Below, in pieces: positions 13,732 through 30,810 of a DNA stretch of 32,236 bases. This stretch comes from Gammaproteobacteria bacterium. Its GTDB lineage: Bacteria > Pseudomonadota > Gammaproteobacteria > Ga0077536. Location: contig CANFVX010000005.1 of NCBI GenBank assembly GCA_947450495.1, positions 1 through 32,236 of the forward strand, read 5' to 3'. The notes under the pieces were generated by a model, which saw only the letters and a program-made list of their open reading frames with translations, was not told where the DNA came from and did not search any database. The position numbers and the translations under genes were made by a program. How positions within the stretch are numbered: the first letter of the stretch is position 1; each line of letters opens with the position of its first letter.

Positions 13732-14349
13732 TCAGGGTCTCGCTATCCAGATCAGTTCGCCGCTGAGGACGGTCCAGTTTTTCCCTTTGCGGACGGCGCG
13801 GATGAGGCGACCAGAACCGCAGGCGGGGCCACAGGTAAATTCGATATACGCCAATGCATGTCCCTCGGGGGCGTCGACGGCCGTTCTTGAGAGGCGGAGC
13901 AGCCCGGGCGCATCGGGAAATTGCGCCCGAAATCGGCCCCAGTTCGCGGCCGCATCTTCGCCGGTGAAGATGTCAGCGCGGGTCTTGTCGTCCAGCAAAT
14001 GATATTTGGCCCGCAGGCTGAACTGCCGCTCAAGGGTAAGCGCGCTTTGATTGGCTTCCACCCAGGCTTTGAGCAAGGTCGGCGAGACGTCCAGTTTTTT
14101 CGCGACGTCCTCAAGTTTGGCGCCCGGTGCCAGGACGGCACCGGTTTCGTCGGTGGTGCGTTGGGCGATGACCACCGTCTTGGCGTCCGCCCCCAGCCCG
14201 TGGGAAATCAGCGCCGACCACAGCGCGTATTGGGTGCTCGTGTCGGGTTCGGCGGCGGTGACTGCGACCGGCGGCGCTGCCAAGGCAAGGCTTTGCCAGA
14301 GCATCAGCGGCAGGAGTCGCCAGCCGAAGCGCCTCAGCAAGCGCGTCAT
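13732..14349 (-). CDS. Exported protein of unknown function
   Basis: A 205-residue protein with a signal peptide (MTRLLRRFGWRLLPLMLW, then LALAA). The mature region includes a segment like LAPGAKLEDVAKKLDVSPTL that looks like a small helical repeat, and a C-terminal part with a CGPAC pair of cysteines in a beta-rich stretch. I do not recognise the family. The start at 14349 gives an ATGA overlap with the upstream MmgE/PrpD gene and places the signal peptide at the N-terminus; the longer open frame to 14448 would bury it. It is followed 2 bp later by the LOG gene. Confidence 0.72.
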   Translation of the reverse strand: MTRLLRRFGWRLLPLMLWQSLALAAPPVAVTAAEPDTSTQYALWSALISHGLGADAKTVVIAQRTTDETGAVLAPGAKLEDVAKKLDVSPTLLKAWVEANQSALTLERQFSLRAKYHLLDDKTRADIFTGEDAAANWGRFRAQFPDAPGLLRLSRTAVDAPEGHALAYIEFTCGPACGSGRLIRAVRKGKNWTVLSGELIWIARP

Positions 14350-15737
14350 CGCGCCACCATGGCGGAGGTGAGTGCTGCCAGATTGGACGCGGTATCGAGG
14401 CCCATCACGGCGGCGATCAAGGCGTCGCTGCTGGATAAAGCCCGACACCGGTCCGCATTGCGGCGGAATTTACGCATCACATCCTCCGGGCCGAGCGGGT
14501 TCTCGGCGGCGCCGCGGTTAACGGCCTCTCGCGCTTCAAGCACGTGGCCATTTTTGAGGTAAATCCGCAGCGCCCCGCTGTAACTGGCGGGATAGCGCGA
14601 TGCCGGATCTGGCTGCCAGCGCACTTTTTGCGCGAGCGCCAGCGTTGCGACATCGCCCAGCGCGGCGGGTTCCAGTTCATCGAGGCCAAAATCCCCGAGC
14701 CGCAGCGTGGCCGCCACGCAGAACTGCAGGCTGAACTGGGCATCGTAGGGCGACTGGGGCGCCAGTTTGGCGACCACGGGTTCGCACACGATCGCGATTT
14801 GGTCGGGGTGAATCAGCGCTTCGATGTGGTCGATGGCTGCGAGGTCGAAGCCCGGCAGTGCCCGGCAGTGCCGGGCGCAATCGATAAAGGCGTGCAGGAA
14901 GTGGCAGGCCGGATACGGTTTGAAGCCGTTGTCGAAAATCGCCCACTGGCGCCCCAGCCCGTCCAGCACGCCGCTGAGGTCCGGTGCCGGGTCGTCGAGC
15001 AGCATGCGATAGAGCCCGAAACGACCCTCAAAGGCCTGCGCCGGGCCCACGAATCCGGCGTGTCCGTACGCGGCCGCCGTGTAGCCCGCGACGGCGGCCC
15101 AGCCGGGATGCAGGCGCTTGGTCCACGCGCCGTCGTTGAGAAATTCCAGATTGCCGCTCGCCATACTGAGCGTGATGCCGAGCGCGTCGGCGATACCGCG
15201 CGAGGACGCGCCAAGCAAGTGGCCGGCGGCGGCCGCGCAGCCGAAGGCGCCAATGATCCCTGTGGGATGCCAGCCCCGCTTTTGCAGGGTGCCGCGGGCG
15301 ACGGCGCCGAGGCGGGCGTCGATTTCAACCGCCAGCAGATAGGCGGTGAGGGCGGCTCGACCGCTCACCCCGCAGCGTTGTCCCACGCCCAGCATCAGCG
15401 GCACCGCGCTGGCGGAACAGTGGACGACGCTCGCGCCGTGGGTGTCGTCGAAATCGAGCCCGTGCACCAGCACGCCGTTCTGGAGCATGGCGTCGCGGAG
15501 CGGCAGGCGCTCGCTGCGGCCAATCACAGGATATTCGCCGGCCTCGCCCAGACTATGGAGGGCGGCTGCGCTGATTTCGGCAAAGTCGCAGGTGCTGGCT
15601 GCAAGCGCGGTGCCCAGCGCATCCAGCACATGGAGTTTGGCGCGTTCAAAAGCTGCCGCCGGAATGGACTCCGGGTGCAGGCTGGCGGCGAACTCGGCCA
15701 GGCGAGTGGCGAGCGTAGGCGATGAGGGCGCTGACAT
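14346..15737 (-). CDS. MmgE/PrpD family protein
   Basis: A 463-residue MmgE/PrpD protein, the family of 2-methylcitrate dehydratase, cis-aconitate decarboxylase and immune-responsive protein 1. Typical features: an N-terminal helical domain starting LATRLAEFAASL, a HVLDALGTALA segment, GLDFDDTH near residue 95, GWHPTGIIGAFG at about 160, and a C-terminal domain with FKPYPACHF. No other propionate or methylcitrate gene (prpB, prpC, acnD) is nearby, so the substrate is probably not methylcitrate. The start at 15737 (MSAPSSPTLATRL) fits the family; the frame stays open to 15920 but that extension is unlike it. First gene of the seven-gene unit that runs to 10499. Confidence 0.9.
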   Translation of the reverse strand: MSAPSSPTLATRLAEFAASLHPESIPAAAFERAKLHVLDALGTALAASTCDFAEISAAALHSLGEAGEYPVIGRSERLPLRDAMLQNGVLVHGLDFDDTHGASVVHCSASAVPLMLGVGQRCGVSGRAALTAYLLAVEIDARLGAVARGTLQKRGWHPTGIIGAFGCAAAAGHLLGASSRGIADALGITLSMASGNLEFLNDGAWTKRLHPGWAAVAGYTAAAYGHAGFVGPAQAFEGRFGLYRMLLDDPAPDLSGVLDGLGRQWAIFDNGFKPYPACHFLHAFIDCARHCRALPGFDLAAIDHIEALIHPDQIAIVCEPVVAKLAPQSPYDAQFSLQFCVAATLRLGDFGLDELEPAALGDVATLALAQKVRWQPDPASRYPASYSGALRIYLKNGHVLEAREAVNRGAAENPLGPEDVMRKFRRNADRCRALSSSDALIAAVMGLDTASNLAALTSAMVAR

Positions 15738-15906: not shown

Positions 15907-16749
15907 ATGCGCACGCTCATTTTTTTCTGTTGCCTCGCCGTTCAGGGTCTCGCTCAAGCCTGGAGCACGCTCGACAACTGGGCCGACGTGGTGCTCCTGC
16001 AAACGCAGGCGCGCCGACCCTTGCCGACCATCACCGCGTTGGAGCCCACCTTGAAGCTGGAAGATGCCTATGGCATCCAGCAGCTGGTGGTGCGCGAACT
16101 CGGGGGCCGCACGCCGCTGGTGGGCTTTCGGTCCGATCTCACCTCGCCGCTCAGCCGGGCCCGCTTGCGCGGCACCGAACCGATTACTTCAGCAGTCCTC
16201 AAGGACCAGTGGCTGGCGCCCGGCGCGTGGGTCACGCGGGCCGCCAAGAGTCAGTTGAAAGTCGCGCCCGCCTTGGGTTTTACGCTCAATGTGCCAATTA
16301 CCAGCCCGGTGACCGATGCTTCCGATCTCGCCGTGAAGGTAAAGGAAGTGCGTCCGGTAGTGGTGCTGGTGGATTACAACTTCGACGACTCAGCGCCGCC
16401 GCAGGTGCAGGATTTGGTGGCCGCCAACGGCGCCAAGGCGAGGCTGGTGGTGGGCGAACCGTTCAGTAGCAGTGAGCCCTCGGTGGTGGACGCCACGTTC
16501 GTGGAGATGCGGCGCGCCGACGAAATAGTGGTGCGCGGCAAAGCCACCAATGTGATGGGCGGGCAGTACGAGGCGTTGCGGTGGCAGGTTAATCAGCTGA
16601 TTGCCCGTGGCTGGCAATTGAAGCCCGGATTTTTGCTTGTTACCGGACCCTTGGCCGAACCGGTGGCGGCCGAGGTTGGCGACTGGCAGGCGGATTACTG
16701 GGAGCACGCGCAGCTGAAGTTCAGCGTGGAATACGGCAAACCGCTGTAA
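15907..16749 (+). CDS. Exported 2-keto-4-pentenoate hydratase-fold protein, likely catalytically inactive
   Basis: A 280-residue protein with a signal peptide (MRTLIFFCCL, then AVQGLAQA, cleavage near 18) followed by a domain that aligns by eye with MhpD/4-oxalocrotonate decarboxylase-type hydratases. The DAYGIQQLVV segment at 53, the LVGFRSDLT segment at 71, and the GWQLKPGFLLVTGPL segment at 235 match the fold. The metal-binding acidic residues of MhpD (Glu106, Glu108, Glu139) align with Ala120, Ala122 and Val153, and the catalytic Lys60 with Arg75. The product therefore looks like a periplasmic binding or structural relative rather than a hydratase. The start at ATG 15907 gives a normal signal peptide. 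It converges with the permease gene with a 6-bp gap. Confidence 0.75.
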   Translation: MRTLIFFCCLAVQGLAQAWSTLDNWADVVLLQTQARRPLPTITALEPTLKLEDAYGIQQLVVRELGGRTPLVGFRSDLTSPLSRARLRGTEPITSAVLKDQWLAPGAWVTRAAKSQLKVAPALGFTLNVPITSPVTDASDLAVKVKEVRPVVVLVDYNFDDSAPPQVQDLVAANGAKARLVVGEPFSSSEPSVVDATFVEMRRADEIVVRGKATNVMGGQYEALRWQVNQLIARGWQLKPGFLLVTGPLAEPVAAEVGDWQADYWEHAQLKFSVEYGKPL

Positions 16750-16755
16750 GCCTGC

Positions 16756-18054
16756 TCAGCCGGCGTTGGCCCACCATTGATAGCCAAAGAGCACGCCCAC
16801 ACCCACGCAATATCCCATTGCGACATAGCCCAGGTTCCAGCGCAGCAGGTCCATCGAACCAAGACCGAAGCGGGTTTGGAACACGAGACTAGTCCCTGAG
16901 AACGGCGAGGCGACCAGACTCAGGCCCCATACCAGCAGGAACACGATACCGAGCAGGTTGCCGTCCAGATCGTTGAAGTGCCAGATGCTGGACAGCGCCG
17001 AAATTGCCGCCACCGGGTGAACGCCCACAATCCCCAGCACGACGAGCCCCGCCAGCAACACCGCCGCGCCGCTGGCATCGAGATGCGCCGGACTCAAGGC
17101 GATATCCCCGTGGCGCACCGCCGCTTCAATGCCGGCGCTCATCACTGCGGCGCCTAGGAACATCGCAATTTCGCTGCCCATGCCGGGGAGACGTTCGCGC
17201 AGGTGGGTGATGAAGACCTGCGGTGCGGCACGACCGCGCACCAGCGGCAGCGTCGCGAGCACCACGCCCAGCGCTGCGCCATCAATCAGCGTCAGCACCG
17301 AGATTTGCGGTAGCAGCCAGTGGCCGCCGAGCACGCAGGTGCTGAGCAATACCGGCGCCCACAGGGCTTGCACGCGTAAAGGGTAGCCAATGAACGCGTG
17401 GGCCTCCGGATCGCGTGGCAAGTGCCAGAAGTTCCACGCCATAAAGCAGCCGGAGGCGATGAAGCCGGCGGCGGAAATGACCGCGAACTGCGCTTTGGGC
17501 AGCAGCTGCAGGATGATCGCCATGGCGATGAAAAACGGCGACCACATCGATGCCGCGACGAACGCGCGGCTGATGGCCTGGCTTTGGAGCCGGCTCAGGC
17601 GTTCGTTCTGCGCAATCCGTTCGCCAATCACCACCGGCGCCGAGATATTGATGACGGCGCCGAAGAGGTGCGTCGCGAGTAGCGTCTGCACCACCGCCCG
17701 CGGGCCGCGGGGCAGGGCCGCGCTGTGCGCCACGCCGGGCTCCGTGATCAAGCGCAGAAAGCTGACCGAGGCGAGCATTGCTAGCATCGGGTGGTTGCCC
17801 TTCTCCAGCGTTGCCCACCAGCTGTAGTCGCCCGCGATGATGGCAACCGAGATCCCCGCCAGACCTATCCCACTCATGATGAGTGCCTGGGTGATCTGAA
17901 AGCGGTTGAGGCCGAACACCAGAATGAGGCCCGCCAACCAGGCGCAGGCGCCCGGCAGAGCGGCGAGTTGGGGCAGAAATCCCGCCCCGGTGAGAAACGA
18001 GGACAGGGTCATCACGGCGACGGCCGTGCCCGCCACCGAGCGGAGCGCAGGCAT
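16756..18054 (-). CDS. Multi-pass inner-membrane protein, probable permease
   Basis: A 432-residue polytopic protein with about ten to twelve hydrophobic segments. Two parts look like half-repeats: one around 95-150 with ATHLFGAVINISAP, and one around 290-370 with GMGSEIAMFLGA and GVHPVAAISALSS. This layout suggests an ion-transporter-type permease with two discontinuous repeats, but I cannot name a family or substrate. It starts 2 bp after the ppsR stop, so it is almost certainly co-transcribed with ppsR, opposite to ppsA. There is no N-terminal signal beyond the first membrane segment. Confidence 0.75.
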   Translation of the reverse strand: MPALRSVAGTAVAVMTLSSFLTGAGFLPQLAALPGACAWLAGLILVFGLNRFQITQALIMSGIGLAGISVAIIAGDYSWWATLEKGNHPMLAMLASVSFLRLITEPGVAHSAALPRGPRAVVQTLLATHLFGAVINISAPVVIGERIAQNERLSRLQSQAISRAFVAASMWSPFFIAMAIILQLLPKAQFAVISAAGFIASGCFMAWNFWHLPRDPEAHAFIGYPLRVQALWAPVLLSTCVLGGHWLLPQISVLTLIDGAALGVVLATLPLVRGRAAPQVFITHLRERLPGMGSEIAMFLGAAVMSAGIEAAVRHGDIALSPAHLDASGAAVLLAGLVVLGIVGVHPVAAISALSSIWHFNDLDGNLLGIVFLLVWGLSLVASPFSGTSLVFQTRFGLGSMDLLRWNLGYVAMGYCVGVGVLFGYQWWANAG

Positions 18055-18056
18055 TT

Positions 18057-18881
18057 TCAGCGCAAACCCTTGTCTCGCACGATGGTGGCGGCAATTTCCT
18101 CGATCGATACCGTGGTGGTGTCCAGAAACTGGATGTTTTGGGCTTTGAACAGGGCCTCAGCCTGCGCCACTTCGGCCCGGCATTGGGTCAGCGTGGAGTA
18201 GGTGCCGTGGGGGCGTCGTTCATGGCGGATGCGGCTGAGTTGTTCCGGCACGATGGTCAGCCCGTAAACCTTCTCGCGACAGCCCACGAGACCTGCCGGC
18301 AAGCCGCCGCGTTCAAAATCCTCCTCTGTCAGCGGGTAATTGGCCGCCTTGAGCGAGTATTGCAGGGCTAAATAGAGGCAGGTGGGGGTTTTGCCGCAGC
18401 GGGAAACCCCGGCGAGCACCACGTCGGCCTGAGCGAGCCCGCGCAGGTTCACCCCATCGTCGTGCGCCAGCGTGTAATTGAGCGCGCTCATTCGCCGCTC
18501 ATAGCTGCTGACGTCGCGAATGCCGTGCATGCGTCCGGCCGTATGCGAGGACTCCTCCCCCAGCGCTTCTTCCAGGGGCTCGATGAAAGTGCCGAACAGG
18601 TCGAAAACGTGTTCGGACGCAGTGCCAATGAAGTACTGGGTGGTAGGGTCAGTGAGGGTGGAAAAGACCACCGGCGCGACCCCATCTTCGTGTTTGGCGG
18701 CGAGAATGATCTCGGCCGCGCTCTGGGCCGCCGCCTGATTGGTCACGAAGGGTAGGGTCTGGGTGACGAACTCGGTGTTGGGAAACTGGGTCAGCAAGGT
18801 CTGGCCGAGCATTTCAACCGTAATGCCGGTCCGATCGGAGACAAAAAAGACCCTGCGTTTTTTGATGATGGAATCGTTGAT
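18057..18881 (-). CDS. ppsR: PEP synthase regulatory protein PpsR, possible ATC start
   Basis: Bifunctional kinase/pyrophosphorylase (DUF299) that phosphorylates PEP synthase on a Thr with ADP and reactivates it with phosphate. The P-loop GVSRCGKTPTCLYLAL lies at 158-173 in this numbering, followed by KAANYPLTEED. The first ordinary start is ATG at 18812, which would remove 23 residues including VFFVSDRTGIT, the conserved family N-terminus. In frame with it, an ATC at 18881 sits 8 bp after GGGGAG (18890-18895), and a TAA stop lies just upstream. With that start the protein is 274 residues, the family's usual length (275-277). It is divergent from ppsA. The ATC start is inferred; a mutated ATG or a sequencing error at the codon is possible. 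Confidence 0.85.
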   Translation of the reverse strand: MNDSIIKKRRVFFVSDRTGITVEMLGQTLLTQFPNTEFVTQTLPFVTNQAAAQSAAEIILAAKHEDGVAPVVFSTLTDPTTQYFIGTASEHVFDLFGTFIEPLEEALGEESSHTAGRMHGIRDVSSYERRMSALNYTLAHDDGVNLRGLAQADVVLAGVSRCGKTPTCLYLALQYSLKAANYPLTEEDFERGGLPAGLVGCREKVYGLTIVPEQLSRIRHERRPHGTYSTLTQCRAEVAQAEALFKAQNIQFLDTTTVSIEEIAATIVRDKGLR

Positions 18882-18961
18882 AAGCCAATCTCCCCGGGTC
18901 GGTTACAATGCCGCTCCCCTTTTCGCCGCGACTGTGCGGAACAGCCTACGAGTAAGCCTGA
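18882..18961. promoter_or_regulatory. ppsR-ppsA divergent intergenic region
   Basis: Eighty base pairs separate the inferred ppsR start and ppsA. On the plus strand TACAAT at 18904-18909 is a good -10-like match. TTGATA at 18877-18882 resembles a -35 box, but the 21-bp spacing is too long for standard sigma70, so the promoter is uncertain. The GGGGAG ppsR ribosome-binding site is at 18890-18895 on the minus strand. Confidence 0.4.
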
Positions 18962-21331
18962 ATGACCGATTATATAGTTCCCCTTGATCACATCGGAATC
19001 GACGATATCGACCGGGTGGGCGGCAAGAACGCCTCGCTGGGCGAGATGATCCGCCATCTCAGCGCCGCCGACGTGCGCGTGCCGGGTGGATTTGCCACGA
19101 CGTCCGAGGCTTTTCGCGAATTTTTGGCGCAAGACGGCTTGGCCGAGCGCATCCAGATCCGTCTGGATACCCTTGATACCGATGACGTCGCGGCCCTGAC
19201 CGCCGCCGGCCGCGAAATCCGCGACTGGGTGTCCAGCACACCGCTACCGGCGGGGTTCGAGGCTGCAATCGCCGAGGCATATGCCGCCATGGCGGCCAGC
19301 GCGCCGGCCGGTTTTTCGGTCGCGGTGCGCTCCTCGGCCACCGCCGAAGACCTGCCCACCGCCTCCTTCGCCGGCCAGCAGGAAACCTATTTGAACGTGA
19401 CCGGTCTGGAGCAGGTTCGACGCCGCATCAAGGACGTCTTCGCCTCTCTCTTCAACGACCGCGCCATTTCCTACCGTGTCCACCACGGTTTTGAACACCA
19501 CAAGGTTGCGCTTTCCGCCGGCATTCAACGCATGGTTCGCAGCGACGTGGGCGCCAGCGGCGTAATGTTCACGCTCGATACCGAATCCGGCTTTCGCGAC
19601 GTGGTGTTCATCACCTCCAGCTATGGTCTGGGCGAACTGGTGGTGCAGGGCGCGGTGAATCCGGACGAATTCTACGTTTACAAGAAAGGCTTGGCCGAAG
19701 GTCGACCCGCAATTCTCCGCCGCAATCTGGGTAGCAAGCATGTGCGCATGAACTACGCCGACGGCGCGGGCACCGGCCACAGCGTGGAAACCCTCGAGGT
19801 CGATGAATCCGACCGACGGGTGTTTTCCATTAACGACCAGGACGTCGAGGAACTGGCCAGACTCGCGGTTGCGATTGAACTGCATTACGGCCGCCCGATG
19901 GACATCGAATGGGCGAAGGACGGGGTGGACGGCAAGCTCTACGTGGTGCAGGCGCGGCCCGAGACCGTGCAAAGCCGCAACGGGCAGGTGATGGAGCGCT
20001 ACGACGTGGGCGCCCGCGGCAAGGTGCTGGTGGAAGGTCGCAGTATCGGCCAGCGCGTGGGCAGCGGCGTGGCGCGGGTTATCTCCGACGTGACCGACAT
20101 GGCCACCTTGCAGGATGGCGACGTGCTGGTCACCGATATGACCGATCCGGACTGGGAGCCGGTTATGAAGCGGGCAGCGGCCATCGTTACCAATCGTGGC
20201 GGCCGCACCTGTCACGCGGCGATTATCGCGCGTGAACTTGGCGTGCCGGCGGTTGTGGGCTGTGGTGACGCGACTGCCAAAATCGTGAACGGCCAGCCGG
20301 TCACCGTGTCGTGCGCCGAAGGCGATACGGGCTACATCTACGAGGGACTGGTGCCTTTCGAACGGCGTGAAATTCGTCTGGATGCCATGCCGGATCTGTC
20401 GGTCAAAATCATGATGAACGTGGGTAATCCCGATCGCGCCTTCGCCTTCGGCAGCTTGCCGCATCGGGGCGTGGGTCTGGCCCGACTTGAGTTCATCATC
20501 AATCGCATGATTGGCATTCACCCGCGAGCGCTGGTCGACTATGCCAAGCTCTCACGCGATTTGCAGGAAAGCATTGCACCGCTGATCGCGGCTTATCCGA
20601 GCCCGCGCGAATTCTTTGTTTCACGGTTGGTTGAGGGCATTTCGACCATTGCGGCGGCGTTCAATCCGCAGCCGGTGATCGTGCGTTTGTCGGACTTCAA
20701 GTCCAACGAATACGCCAACCTGATCGCGGGCAACGTGTATGAGCCCGAGGAGGAAAATCCGATGCTCGGCTTCCGCGGCGCCTCGCGTTACATCGCCGAC
20801 AACTTCCGCGCCTGTTTCCAGATGGAATGCGACGCGCTGAAGCGGGTGCGCAACGACATGGGCCTTACCAACGTGGAAGTCATGGTGCCCTTCGTGCGCA
20901 CGCCCGATGAAGCGCGTCAGGTCATCGACCTGCTGGCCGAAGCCGGCCTGCGTCGCGGTGAGAACGGGCTGCGCATCATCATGATGTGCGAGTTGCCGTC
21001 CAACGCGCTGCTGGCCGAAGAGTTTCTGCAGTATTTCGATGGCTTTTCGATTGGTTCTAACGACCTTACCCAGTTAACGCTGGGACTCGATCGGGATTCA
21101 GGTCTGGTGGCGCATCTGTTCGACGAGCGGAACCCGGCGGTCAAAATGCTGATGGCGAAAGCGATCAGCGCTTGCCGTGCAGCCGGCAAATACATCGGTA
21201 TTTGCGGCCAGGGGCCGTCGGATCACCCTGACCTCGCGGCCTGGTTGCTGGAACAAGGCATCGAGAGCATTTCGCTTAACCCGGATACGGTCGTGGAGAC
21301 CTGGCTAAGCCTCGCCCAGCGTCACGGCTAG
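18962..21331 (+). CDS. ppsA: Phosphoenolpyruvate synthase
   Basis: Converts pyruvate, ATP and water to PEP, AMP and phosphate for gluconeogenesis. The 789 residues compare with 792 in E. coli. The N-terminal ATP-grasp domain begins [15 protein letters not shown] and contains [20 protein letters not shown]. The phosphohistidine domain has [21 protein letters not shown] with catalytic His418 (E. coli His421), preceded by the Thr that PpsR modifies. The C-terminal PEP-binding TIM barrel has [16 protein letters not shown] and [11 protein letters not shown] with Cys748 (E. coli Cys751). The regulator ppsR is divergent, 80 bp away. The start at ATG 18962 matches the family; only a weak GAG stands as ribosome-binding site. 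Confidence 0.97.
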
Positions 21332-22090: not shown

Positions 22091-22957
22091 TTAGCGCGCC
22101 AGCACCAGCGTTTGGGCGGTGGCGAGTACTTCAGGCGCGTCAAAAACGCGGTCATTTGCTTCAAACATCTGGGCGATACAGGCGCGCTGCAGTTCCAGCT
22201 TGAGTCCCCCGAAGCCCAGCGCGCCGTAGCAGCGCTTGCCATGACGAAGCGTGCCGCGGTCCTGCATCTCGATGCCGGCAATTCCCAGCGGCGGGGTGGC
22301 GTTGGAATCCAGCACCGCCTCCAGCGTGGGATGGGTGGACCATAGCGCCTCGGGCAGCAGTTCGATGCCGGCGGCACCGGTGGTCATCACAATTTGGGCG
22401 CCTTGCAGGACGTCCTCTACCGCCGGGAGTTCGGGCGTGGCGGCGGGTGTGATTGCCAGTTTGAAGCGGGTATTCATCGCCTCGCAGGCGCTCGCTGCGC
22501 GGTCATGCGTGCGTGAGCACAAGGTCACCAGTGCGCCCTGCTGCGCCAGCATGGCGGCCGCGCGCTGCCCCACGGGGCCCGTGCCGGCCAGAATCACGGC
22601 GCGCTTTCCGGCCACAGGCAGGTCTTTCCCCAGCAGCGCGATGGCCGCTGCCGCCGTCGTATTGCTGCCATTGCTGTCCAACATGACCGACACCCGGAAC
22701 TGGCCAAAAAACTGCTGACGGACCGCTTTGAACAGCGCCTCGCCATCCGCCATGTTGGTGCCGGTGATGAACAGTGCGGTAAATTTTTTTGCGCTGGGTG
22801 GGCGCGTGAACACCACGCCTTCCACCAACTTCGCGACATTCGCCGCCGAGATGCCGCCTAGCGGAGTCACGTGATCGGCACCGGCGTCGTAGGCCACAAC
22901 TACATCGAAGGTGTTGGGCGGGGTGTCGGTGTCGAAAATAAACAGCAGCTTTTTCAT
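22091..22957 (-). CDS. mtdB: Methylene-tetrahydromethanopterin dehydrogenase
   Basis: Oxidises methylene-H4MPT to methenyl-H4MPT with NAD(P)+ in the tetrahydromethanopterin-linked formaldehyde oxidation pathway. The 288 residues align by eye along the full length with MtdB of Methylobacterium: MKKLLFIFDTD at the start, YDAGADHV, MLDSNGSNTTAAA at 92-104, the dinucleotide loop LAGTGPVG at 123-130, NATPPLGIAGIEMQD and YGALGFGGLKLEL. MtdA-type enzymes are related, but the MKKLLFxFDTD and DSNGSNT pattern favours MtdB. The adjacent divergent gene is fchA (149 bp away) and a co-directional unknown follows. Other pathway genes (fae, mch, fhc) are not in the window. Confidence 0.93.
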   Translation of the reverse strand: MKKLLFIFDTDTPPNTFDVVVAYDAGADHVTPLGGISAANVAKLVEGVVFTRPPSAKKFTALFITGTNMADGEALFKAVRQQFFGQFRVSVMLDSNGSNTTAAAAIALLGKDLPVAGKRAVILAGTGPVGQRAAAMLAQQGALVTLCSRTHDRAASACEAMNTRFKLAITPAATPELPAVEDVLQGAQIVMTTGAAGIELLPEALWSTHPTLEAVLDSNATPPLGIAGIEMQDRGTLRHGKRCYGALGFGGLKLELQRACIAQMFEANDRVFDAPEVLATAQTLVLAR

Positions 22958-23065
22958 GCAATACCAGCGGAGAGACTTTCAATGCGCGAGGGCACACTAA
23001 CCGCAGGCGAGAGCCCTCACAAGCCGCGCTAGAAACTGCGGATGAGTGCAGCGCGCGTCGCTGCC

Positions 23066-23071
23066 TATAAT
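23066..23071 (+). promoter_or_regulatory. Candidate -10 box for fchA
   Basis: A perfect TATAAT, 35 bp upstream of the fchA start, inside the 149-bp region between mtdB and fchA. An ATGAGT sequence 18 bp upstream (23042-23047) is a weak -35 match (3 of 6). The leader would be about 28-30 nt, followed by GGAG at 23095-23098. Confidence 0.45.
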
Positions 23072-23106
23072 CGACGCCTTACCTTGAGCCCTGCGGAGTG
23101 CCCCCC

Positions 23107-23730
23107 ATGCTGACCGAGCAAAAAATTCAGGAATTTCTCGACCAATTGGCCAGCCGTGCGTCGACGCCGGGCGGCGGTAGCGCTGCCGGCCTCATGGGGG
23201 CCATGGGCGCGGCGCTGATCGGCATGGTGTGCAATCTGACCCTCGGCAAAGAAAAGCACGCCGCGGTGGCCGATGAAATGGCGCTGGTGCTGGCCGAGGC
23301 CGAGCAACTGCGTGAACGCTTAACACAAGCAATTACGGCCGACATCGCCGCCTTTGATGCCGTCATGGCAGCCTACGGAATGGCCAAGGACACCGAAGAA
23401 CAAAAGCTCGCGCGCGCGCTAGCCGTGCAGGCGGCGCTGGTGCTGGCGACCGAAGCGCCGATGGATTGTGCGCGATTGTCGGCGCGGGTTATCGCCCTGT
23501 CAGAGCCGGTTGCAGAGCGCGGCAATCCCAATGTGATCAGCGATGCCGGGGTTGCCGTGATGGCCGGATGGGCGGCGCTCAAGAGTGCGGCGCTGAATGT
23601 CTACGTGAACGCCGGCGTGATTAAGGATCGGGCGTTTGCCGAAGCACGCCTGACGGAGTTGTCTGCGCTGCTGGCGAACGCCGAGCCCGCTGTGAATCGC
23701 ATCTATGAGAGCGTCCGCAGCCGGCTTTGA
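23107..23730 (+). CDS. fchA: Methenyltetrahydrofolate cyclohydrolase, formiminotransferase-cyclodeaminase family
   Basis: Hydrolyses methenyl-H4F to formyl-H4F in C1 transfer. The 207-residue protein belongs to the formiminotransferase-cyclodeaminase superfamily and aligns by eye with Methylobacterium FchA: FLDQLASRASTPGGGSAAG near the start, GAMGAALIGMVCNLTLGK, DIAAFDAVMAAYG, ERGNPNVISDAGVAV and SAALNVYVNA. The start at ATG 23107 has GGAG 8 bp upstream; the in-frame GTG at 23098 lies inside that site. It is divergent from mtdB and converges with nadC with a 3-bp gap. Together with mtdB it implies C1 flux between H4MPT- and H4F-linked branches. Confidence 0.93.
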   Translation: MLTEQKIQEFLDQLASRASTPGGGSAAGLMGAMGAALIGMVCNLTLGKEKHAAVADEMALVLAEAEQLRERLTQAITADIAAFDAVMAAYGMAKDTEEQKLARALAVQAALVLATEAPMDCARLSARVIALSEPVAERGNPNVISDAGVAVMAGWAALKSAALNVYVNAGVIKDRAFAEARLTELSALLANAEPAVNRIYESVRSRL

Positions 23731-29220: not shown

Positions 29221-30810
29221 ATGCAGCATAAACAGGACGACCCGATAACTGCCCAGATCAAATCTCTGCAGCGCCCGCTGGGCGGGCGTCGACTACTGTC
29301 CTGGAGCTTGTTTGTCATTGCGGCCGTCGTCTGCTTGCTGCTCCCCGTTGCAAGTTCCAGGCATGCGGAAGAACTGAAGGGCTGGCTGCACAAGGTGCCG
29401 GGTCTCGCCGAACACGTTCAACCGCTGATGGCGAGTATGGAACAAGCATTCCTCGCGCGCCGACCCGACCCGGCGGTAAAAGCCCCCGCTGAACGCAAAT
29501 CTCACGACGACATTCATGCCCTGCTGGTCGCGGGGGCCTACACCCCACCGCCGCCGAGCTTGCTCGGTTTGGACCGGGTCTGGAATCCGGGCCCGCTGGC
29601 GCAAGCGCATCAGCCTTGGGCGAACGATTGTAAAGTTTGTCACAGCGTGCCGTTCAAACAGGTCATGGATAAAGACTGCAGAACCTGCCACGCGACGATC
29701 GGTGACCACGTAAACGCCAAGGCGGGCGAAATCCACGGTCTCAGTGACCGCAGCTGCACGAGCTGTCATCAGGACCACGAAGGGGAGTTTGGTCTTGCCA
29801 CGCAAAACCGGCATTTTGTCGGTCGTGATTGCGCAGAGTGTCATCGAGACATCAAGGGCGCGATGCCCACCACGCAAACCGAAAACGTCGCTGACTTTGC
29901 GAAGCAGCACCCCCAGTTCCGCGTGCAACTCGCTGGCACGCCACCCGAGTCGGCACTGACCCGGGTTCGTCTTGAGCCTGGCAAGCCGCTGGAGGAACCC
30001 ACCGGGCTTAAATTCCCGCACGACGTCCATCTCAGCGCGAAAGGCATCGACAGCCCCAAAGGCACGGTGCGGATGGAATGCGCGAACTGTCATGTGCTGC
30101 AGCCGGACGGTCTGCGCTTCGTCCCGACAAACATGAAGGACCATTGCCAAAGCTGCCACGCGCTGAAGCTCGAGCCCCAGATGTCTAACCGCGAAGTGCC
30201 GCACGGCTCGGTGCCTGAAGTCCTCACAGCCTTGCGCGAGTTTTATGCCTATGTGGCGCAGCAGGGCGGACTACCGGCGAGTGCCGAACCCCTCACCCAC
30301 ACCATCCAAATCACCCGGCCTGGCGAACCCGGGGCGGTGCCGCGCAGCTTCATTGATCTGCCCGGTGGCGTGCGTGAACGCGCGGCGGCGGCGGCGGCCG
30401 AGTTGTTCGAAAAAACCTCCTGCGTGGTATGTCATGAGGTAAGCCGCGAGGCTGGCGCCGGACTGGCTGGGACTCCCGGATCAGACCTGCCGCAGTGGAA
30501 GATTGCGCCGGTGCAGTCCGTCCACGTGTGGTTGCCGAAATCGGTGTTCAGCCACGCGACTCACGCCAATGAAGCGTGCACGGACTGCCATCAGGCCGAG
30601 CACTCCCAGAAGGCCACTGAGGTGCTGATGCCGCGCATTGAGGTCTGCCGTGATTGCCACGCGGGAACTGCGCCGTCCGTCAATAAAATCGTCTCGGATT
30701 GCGGGCTTTGCCACGGCTTCCATCAGCCCGCCCGCTTGCCTGTCACCGCGCAACTCACGCGTCCGTCGCTTTTGCCAACCGACAAGGCCGGCGAGGCGCC
30801 CCCGCGATGA
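29221..30810 (+). CDS. Membrane-anchored decaheme c-type cytochrome
   Basis: A 529-residue protein with one uncleaved N-terminal membrane helix (about 25-45) and a long periplasmic part with ten CXXCH heme sites, with the first Cys at 137, 153, 179, 204, 287, 309, 401, 453, 476 and 494. Additional histidines (for example His130, His182, His198, His267, His444, His448) can serve as distal ligands. Heme sites fall in three groups: four, two and four. The spacing resembles cytochrome c3/doubled-CXXCH domains, but the whole does not match NapC, NrfB or MtrA that I can recognise. The gene is flanked by the b-type membrane protein (6 bp before) and an exported heme-binding-like protein overlapping its stop by four bases. 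Confidence 0.9.
   Translation: MQHKQDDPITAQIKSLQRPLGGRRLLSWSLFVIAAVVCLLLPVASSRHAEELKGWLHKVPGLAEHVQPLMASMEQAFLARRPDPAVKAPAERKSHDDIHALLVAGAYTPPPPSLLGLDRVWNPGPLAQAHQPWANDCKVCHSVPFKQVMDKDCRTCHATIGDHVNAKAGEIHGLSDRSCTSCHQDHEGEFGLATQNRHFVGRDCAECHRDIKGAMPTTQTENVADFAKQHPQFRVQLAGTPPESALTRVRLEPGKPLEEPTGLKFPHDVHLSAKGIDSPKGTVRMECANCHVLQPDGLRFVPTNMKDHCQSCHALKLEPQMSNREVPHGSVPEVLTALREFYAYVAQQGGLPASAEPLTHTIQITRPGEPGAVPRSFIDLPGGVRERAAAAAAELFEKTSCVVCHEVSREAGAGLAGTPGSDLPQWKIAPVQSVHVWLPKSVFSHATHANEACTDCHQAEHSQKATEVLMPRIEVCRDCHAGTAPSVNKIVSDCGLCHGFHQPARLPVTAQLTRPSLLPTDKAGEAPPR

Follow-up and report, generated by a model that had tools for sequence, protein, structure and literature searches.

The open reading frame at positions 15907-16749 (+) of the window, a 32,236-nucleotide stretch that is the whole of contig C5 in a draft genome of 3.47 Mb, encodes a protein of the MhpD/HpcG/DmpH hydratase-type fold in which the three metal-binding glutamates of the family are replaced by Ala, Ala and Val. 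Judged from its sequence and that of its relatives, it is probably a conserved protein that is non-catalytic or re-purposed. Our preferred reading, to which we assign a probability of about 0.68, is a periplasmic pseudoenzyme that arose from an exported, metal-dependent hydratase-like ancestor and was re-purposed for a non-catalytic, metal-free binding role. The analysis reveals that a family of aromatic-degradation enzymes known from textbooks as cytosolic has an exported branch, and the loss of the catalytic site can be traced because the ligand-less gene and its ligand-keeping orthologues occupy one genomic place.

A hydratase-type fold behind a predicted signal peptide

The gene and its parts are as follows.
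15907..16749 (+): CDS of the hydratase-fold protein with predicted export (P0001), ATG start, 280 aa plus stop; start Met shared by orthologues
15907..15960 (+): Sec signal peptide predicted over residues 1-18 (MRTLIFFCCLAVQGLAQA), from the hydrophobic N-terminal extension, AxA motif and orthologue conservation
15961..16746 (+): mature hydratase-fold domain, residues 19-280, from AlphaFold2 (pLDDT 90.3) and Foldseek matches to HpcG, NahK and MhpD

The ORF was judged to be real because the same start Met is found in the 95% identical L014/L004 and the 69-70% identical L015 and L016. Within the window's genus, orthologues from seven genomes are 95%, 70%, 69%, 54%, 53%, 51% and 45% identical to the window protein, and those of the next genus about 38-41%. 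The public contig CAMCQE010000013.1 (L004), which carries the locus of contig C13 of genome G014 from the window's genus, is titled Klebsiella pneumoniae, an organism name that looks wrong.

The N-terminus contains the hydrophobic stretch MRTLIFFCCLAVQG, ending in AQA|W, and the orthologues likewise have a hydrophobic stretch ending in A-W, followed by a conserved W-A; cleavage would be expected before W19. Characterised enzymes of the family are typically cytosolic and have no signal peptide. The extension is present in practically all close relatives of the window protein and absent from cytosolic members, in agreement with the signal peptide predicted in the earlier note.

An AlphaFold2 model of the window protein, built with 19 family sequences, has a mean pLDDT of 90.3, falling to low values only around the signal peptide and over the three C-terminal residues. 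The best Foldseek match is HpcG (2eb6, E 8.7e-24, TM 0.83-0.87), accompanied by NahK, the 8ih6 complex and MhpD, with generic FAH proteins following from about 4e-11. A phmmer search of PDB sequences returned HpcG (2eb4, 4.2e-13), NahK (1.2e-10) and MhpD (4.7e-8), and the profile of the core ligand-less group aligned with the cytosolic enzymes in hhalign at E 1.4e-27. The hydratase fold proposed earlier therefore extends over the whole length of the protein by AlphaFold2, Foldseek and hhalign, with sequence homology far beyond chance, placing it in the FAH superfamily. In NCBIfam, the matches to DmpH (3e-14), HpaH (3.1e-14) and DmpE (1.4e-12) all lie far under the curated cut-offs, the protein scoring at most 53 bits against the 350-409 of the equivalogs HpaH, DmpE, DmpH and MhpD. 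Neither it nor its exported relatives have a Pfam match, so profile libraries name the exported branch only by sub-threshold NCBIfam matches. By ancestry the window protein belongs to the hydratase-type fold family, though under every NCBIfam cut-off.

Replacement of the metal-site residues

Residues of the canonical site are numbered as in E. coli MhpD (NP_414884.2; K60, E105, E107 and E138), and the codons at their aligned places are listed below.
16129..16131 (+): R75 codon, at the place of MhpD K60
16264..16266 (+): A120 codon, at the place of metal ligand E105; Ala without exception in the core ligand-less group
16270..16272 (+): A122 codon, at the place of metal ligand E107
16363..16365 (+): V153 codon, at the place of metal ligand E138

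These four replacements were obtained concordantly by phmmer, by a MAFFT alignment of cytosolic and exported relatives, and by hhalign of the core ligand-less profile against cytosolic enzymes; none of the three returned an acidic residue to the metal site. The ligand loss and the Lys60-to-Arg75 change reported in the earlier note thus stand, with its glutamate numbering (106, 108 and 139) corrected downwards by one. K60, G62, E105, E107 and E138 are kept in 26/26 canonical enzymes, every cytosolic sequence compared having E/E/E, and in 16/16 intact exported relatives. The Asp of the A-D-N motif (D157) is also replaced in the window protein, by A173.

At the three ligand positions, the 14 core orthologues have A, A or G, and a variable residue. 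Both E-x-E glutamates are absent from 14/14, so the loss is not a one-off; conservation of the pocket among homologues, named earlier as a check, bears out the ligand loss. The surrounding scaffold columns are kept and the C-terminal T246-G247 segment is invariant, as had been claimed for the strands and the VTG segment.

In the FAH superfamily the metal is bound in bidentate fashion by the 1,2-dicarbonyl group of the substrate (PMC8398924), and the single change E106Q leaves vinylpyruvate hydratase with very little hydratase activity (PMC5480330). Because one Glu change already nearly inactivates that enzyme and the substrate binds through the metal, loss of all three glutamates should abolish the family reaction. 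A monomer model would miss a metal site that other residues, or an interface between subunits, might provide anew.

An exported branch that mostly keeps the ligands

In a maximum-likelihood tree (four site columns removed; unrooted, midpoint-drawn), 38 exported rows form a branch with support 100/99, apart from the cytosolic rows, and the window protein with its predicted export signal lies within it. The branch is sparse in Gammaproteobacteria: among 369 genomes of the class, a family profile matched at E <= 1e-38 in 13, of which nine belong to other bacterial families than the window's. Eight of these nine encode a signal-peptide or lipobox protein (e.g. L061, L064) that keeps E-x-E and the third Glu, and the ninth match, L068, is a cytosolic-type sequence. 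Later searches added the exported members L138-L141, and a plasmid search yielded ordinary cytosolic-type members of about 30% identity or less.

K/E/E/E is kept by 16/16 exported relatives in the main sample, 7/7 members of a second exported subfamily and 9/10 further new loci. Since most members of the branch retain these residues, export preceded ligand loss; the earlier premise that the family is cytosolic, with export arising alongside the loss, is not supported. The canonical A-D-N Asp is missing from all exported members, so even the ligand-keepers may not run standard hydration.

The second exported subfamily (support 100/100) has intact E/E/E together with a motif of the I-P-T/H-N type; PG stands where the TG turn would be. 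Within the window's genus, some genomes carry this subfamily. Its members are:
L110:1001-1807 (-)
L112:995-1825 (-)
L116:986-1813 (+)
L117:974-1801 (+)
L059, L114 and L115: other members

Several ligand-keeping exported members (L138, L137, L136, L139, L140, L064, L061) have a lipobox such as LSAC or LAGC, which makes membrane anchoring probable for part of the branch. L141, a lipoprotein-like sequence from another bacterial family that was left out of the tree, has E-x-K in place of E-x-E (RAGYELKLGY) and may have lost part of the metal set independently.

A literature search for an exported FAH or hydratase protein found no description, and one joining 'pseudoenzyme' with 'fumarylacetoacetate hydrolase' found nothing, within a coverage that includes a minority of subscription journals.

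A single loss at a fixed chromosomal position

Every altered-ligand row in the tree falls in one derived clade (98/97) from one bacterial family, and by parsimony one change accounts for the altered ligands. Early-branching members of the clade keep part of the set, the four site positions reading R-E-H-E in L027 and R-S-E-V in L028. Genus g2 has K/R/I-A-A/G-D/N/E, with the third Glu kept in one member (L024), and the window's genus g1 has mostly R-A-A-V/L, its earliest branch reading K-A-A-M. This record (E-H-E, S-E-V, A-A/G-D/N/E, A-A-V/L/M) amounts to a stepwise path from enzyme to pseudoenzyme. With such graded loss, some altered members could bind metal weakly or differently.

The gene is surrounded in the window by the following.
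14349..15737 (-): MmgE/PrpD family protein, divergent neighbour (Pfam PF03972 5e-58, PF19305 1e-32)
16756..18054 (-): hydrophobic, probable membrane protein of 432 aa, convergent neighbour, unmatched in Pfam and NCBIfam
18057..21331: genes for the PEP synthase regulatory protein (-) and for PEP synthase (+), which serve as syntenic anchors (Pfam PF03618, PF01326, PF02896)

The psrp-ppsA anchors mark the same slot across the window's bacterial family, and the local gene order, with the genes on the other side, is common to it, including the K-E-E-E genera g3, g5, g7 and g9. Because genera that keep the ligands and genera that lack them have the gene in the same chromosomal slot, the loss took place in situ. 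The MmgE/PrpD gene adjoins in several genera, and the membrane-protein gene is likewise conserved alongside in several of the family's genera; both are missing from this position in g2. As g2 has the protein without the MmgE/PrpD gene alongside, that neighbour is not required. Apart from scattered EAL/GGDEF proteins, taken as chance, no neighbour is shared outside the bacterial family. A MAPEG-like gene, recognised by eye beside two unrelated loci (L091, L093), offered too few cases to use. For the window protein, the analysis yielded neither a ligand nor a partner, and the synteny comparison pointed to no gene linked to it in function.

Elsewhere in the window, positions 22091-23730 hold a methylene-H4MPT dehydrogenase-like gene (Mpt_N 1.6e-28) beside a divergent cyclodeaminase/cyclohydrolase gene (FTCD_C 7.7e-61), a pair that suggests C1 metabolism for this genome. 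A multihaem cytochrome c protein (Cytochrome_C7 8e-12) is encoded at 29221-30810 (+), after a hydrophobic 274-aa protein without a Pfam match.

Selection and newly conserved residues

By the NG86 method, dN/dS is 0.09 for the window gene and L014 (0.023/0.252), 0.18 for L015-L016 (0.018/0.097), 0.18 for L017-L018 and 0.09 for L021-L022 (0.113/1.21). The ligand-keeping orthologues give similar values (0.11-0.22). A conserved catalytic motif is thus missing from a gene that is maintained by selection. PMC10211241 describes pseudoenzymes as common, and its definition, a missing conserved catalytic motif, is used here.

Targeted change was screened over columns whose conservation among the intact exported relatives is 80% or higher. 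The core group differs from them at K60, G62, 81-82, E105, E107, E138, 140 and 234, together with one signal-peptide column; nearly all lie at or beside the site in sequence, and 234 is near the TG turn. The scaffold columns G58, T64, P135, D153, A156, N158, G167, W210, T230 and G231 are unchanged. The core group has gained the invariants A120, P121, W19, Q32 and P252, and, as read from the alignment, a constant Ala at position 120 is more than the mere absence of a Glu. The whole ligand-altered clade has new invariants of its own, N215 being counted with the following two, which are invariant in all its members, L027 and L028 included.
16504..16506 (+): E200 codon, new invariant residue of the ligand-altered clade
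16534..16536 (+): R210 codon, new invariant residue of the ligand-altered clade

Proposed role and alternative explanations

In the proposed course of events, the ancestor would have been an exported metal-dependent hydratase-like protein. Without E105, E107 and E138, its descendant would have no hold on the divalent metal needed to activate the 2-oxo acid, and the catalysis of the family would cease. The retained D169, N174, W226, N229 and T246-G247, together with the new E200, R210 and N215, would then serve a metal-free periplasmic role, most likely the binding of a small organic acid or a partner protein. In the earlier proposal of a periplasmic pseudoenzyme with a new binding role, the predicted export, the hydratase fold and the loss of ligands are all upheld; the binding role is the inferred part, with which purifying selection and the new invariants are compatible. 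A wider scenario, held tentatively and on the whole doubtful, joins two elements: an unrecognised Gammaproteobacteria family of periplasmic or lipoprotein 2-oxo-acid metalloenzymes, and conversion of its resident copy, in place and in one lineage, to a protein that binds or senses in the periplasm without metal and has a new site centred on E200 and R210.

Two alternatives deny either the loss or its significance. Acidic ligands might exist but be misaligned, as identity to the solved enzymes is just about 20-24%; with phmmer, MAFFT and hhalign concordant, and with close orthologues of 27-33% identity aligning gap-free at the E-x-E strand and having E/E/E there, we regard such an artefact as hardly credible. 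That every catalytic residue is gone could also indicate a relaxed, functionless remnant in decay, but all core orthologues are full-length and retain the slot, dN/dS is about 0.1-0.18, and Ala120 and many other columns are invariant across 37-95% identity, leaving this explanation with next to no weight.

The other two grant the protein a different function. It could still be an enzyme, its site rebuilt for a different reaction that is metal-independent or uses a relocated metal, with E200, R210 and R75 functional. The new invariants E200, R210 and N215, the purifying selection and the preserved pocket scaffold would all suit this; however, the triad is not replaced by any conserved acidic cluster, FAH-superfamily chemistry needs bidentate substrate-metal binding (PMC8398924), and the strands carrying E200 (198-203) and R210 (206-212) follow one another in the model, where the two residues may simply form a structural salt bridge. 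We consider a rebuilt enzyme unlikely, though less so than a role as regulatory or structural subunit of the ligand-keeping second exported paralogue, comparable to DmpE-DmpH mixed complexes. Decarboxylase-hydratase complexes are known (PDB 8ih6), and the second subfamily with intact E/E/E occurs in same-genus genomes G007, G010 and G011 and in G003 and G004 of g2. The same searches, however, found no second exported paralogue in G014 (97% complete), G013 (96%), or G001, G002 and G005 (94-100%); because these near-complete genomes have the ligand-less protein without it, the paralogue is not an obligatory partner, and the subunit role appears very improbable. The metal-free pseudoenzyme is retained as the best explanation.

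Comparison with known enzymes

The closest known system in both structure and sequence is HpcG/HpaH, 2-oxo-hept-4-ene-1,7-dioate hydratase (PDB 2eb4-2eb6), which shares the whole-length fold. HpcG carries no export signal and has Mg bound in its solved structure, whereas the window protein is without the metal glutamates and reaches 53 bits against the family cut-off of 351.5. The fold is also common to E. coli MhpD, 2-keto-4-pentenoate hydratase (PDB 1sv6, 2wqt), of which the scaffold residues G58, T64, D153, N158, W210 and T230-G231 are kept, while K60, E105, E107, E138 and D157 are replaced and export is predicted. NahK/DmpH, 4-oxalocrotonate decarboxylase (PDB 5d2f-5d2k), has the same fold and a similar score; unlike the window protein, it is a metal enzyme of a meta-cleavage pathway with all ligands and no export signal. 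Closest by profile (hhalign E 5.6e-59) are the ligand-keeping exported proteins (L029-L032, L050-L052, L055, L060-L067, L130-L140), which have a signal peptide or lipobox, belong to the same fold family and, within the window's bacterial family, occupy the same chromosomal slot. Like the window protein they lack the A-D-N Asp, but they have the K, E, E and E that it has lost.
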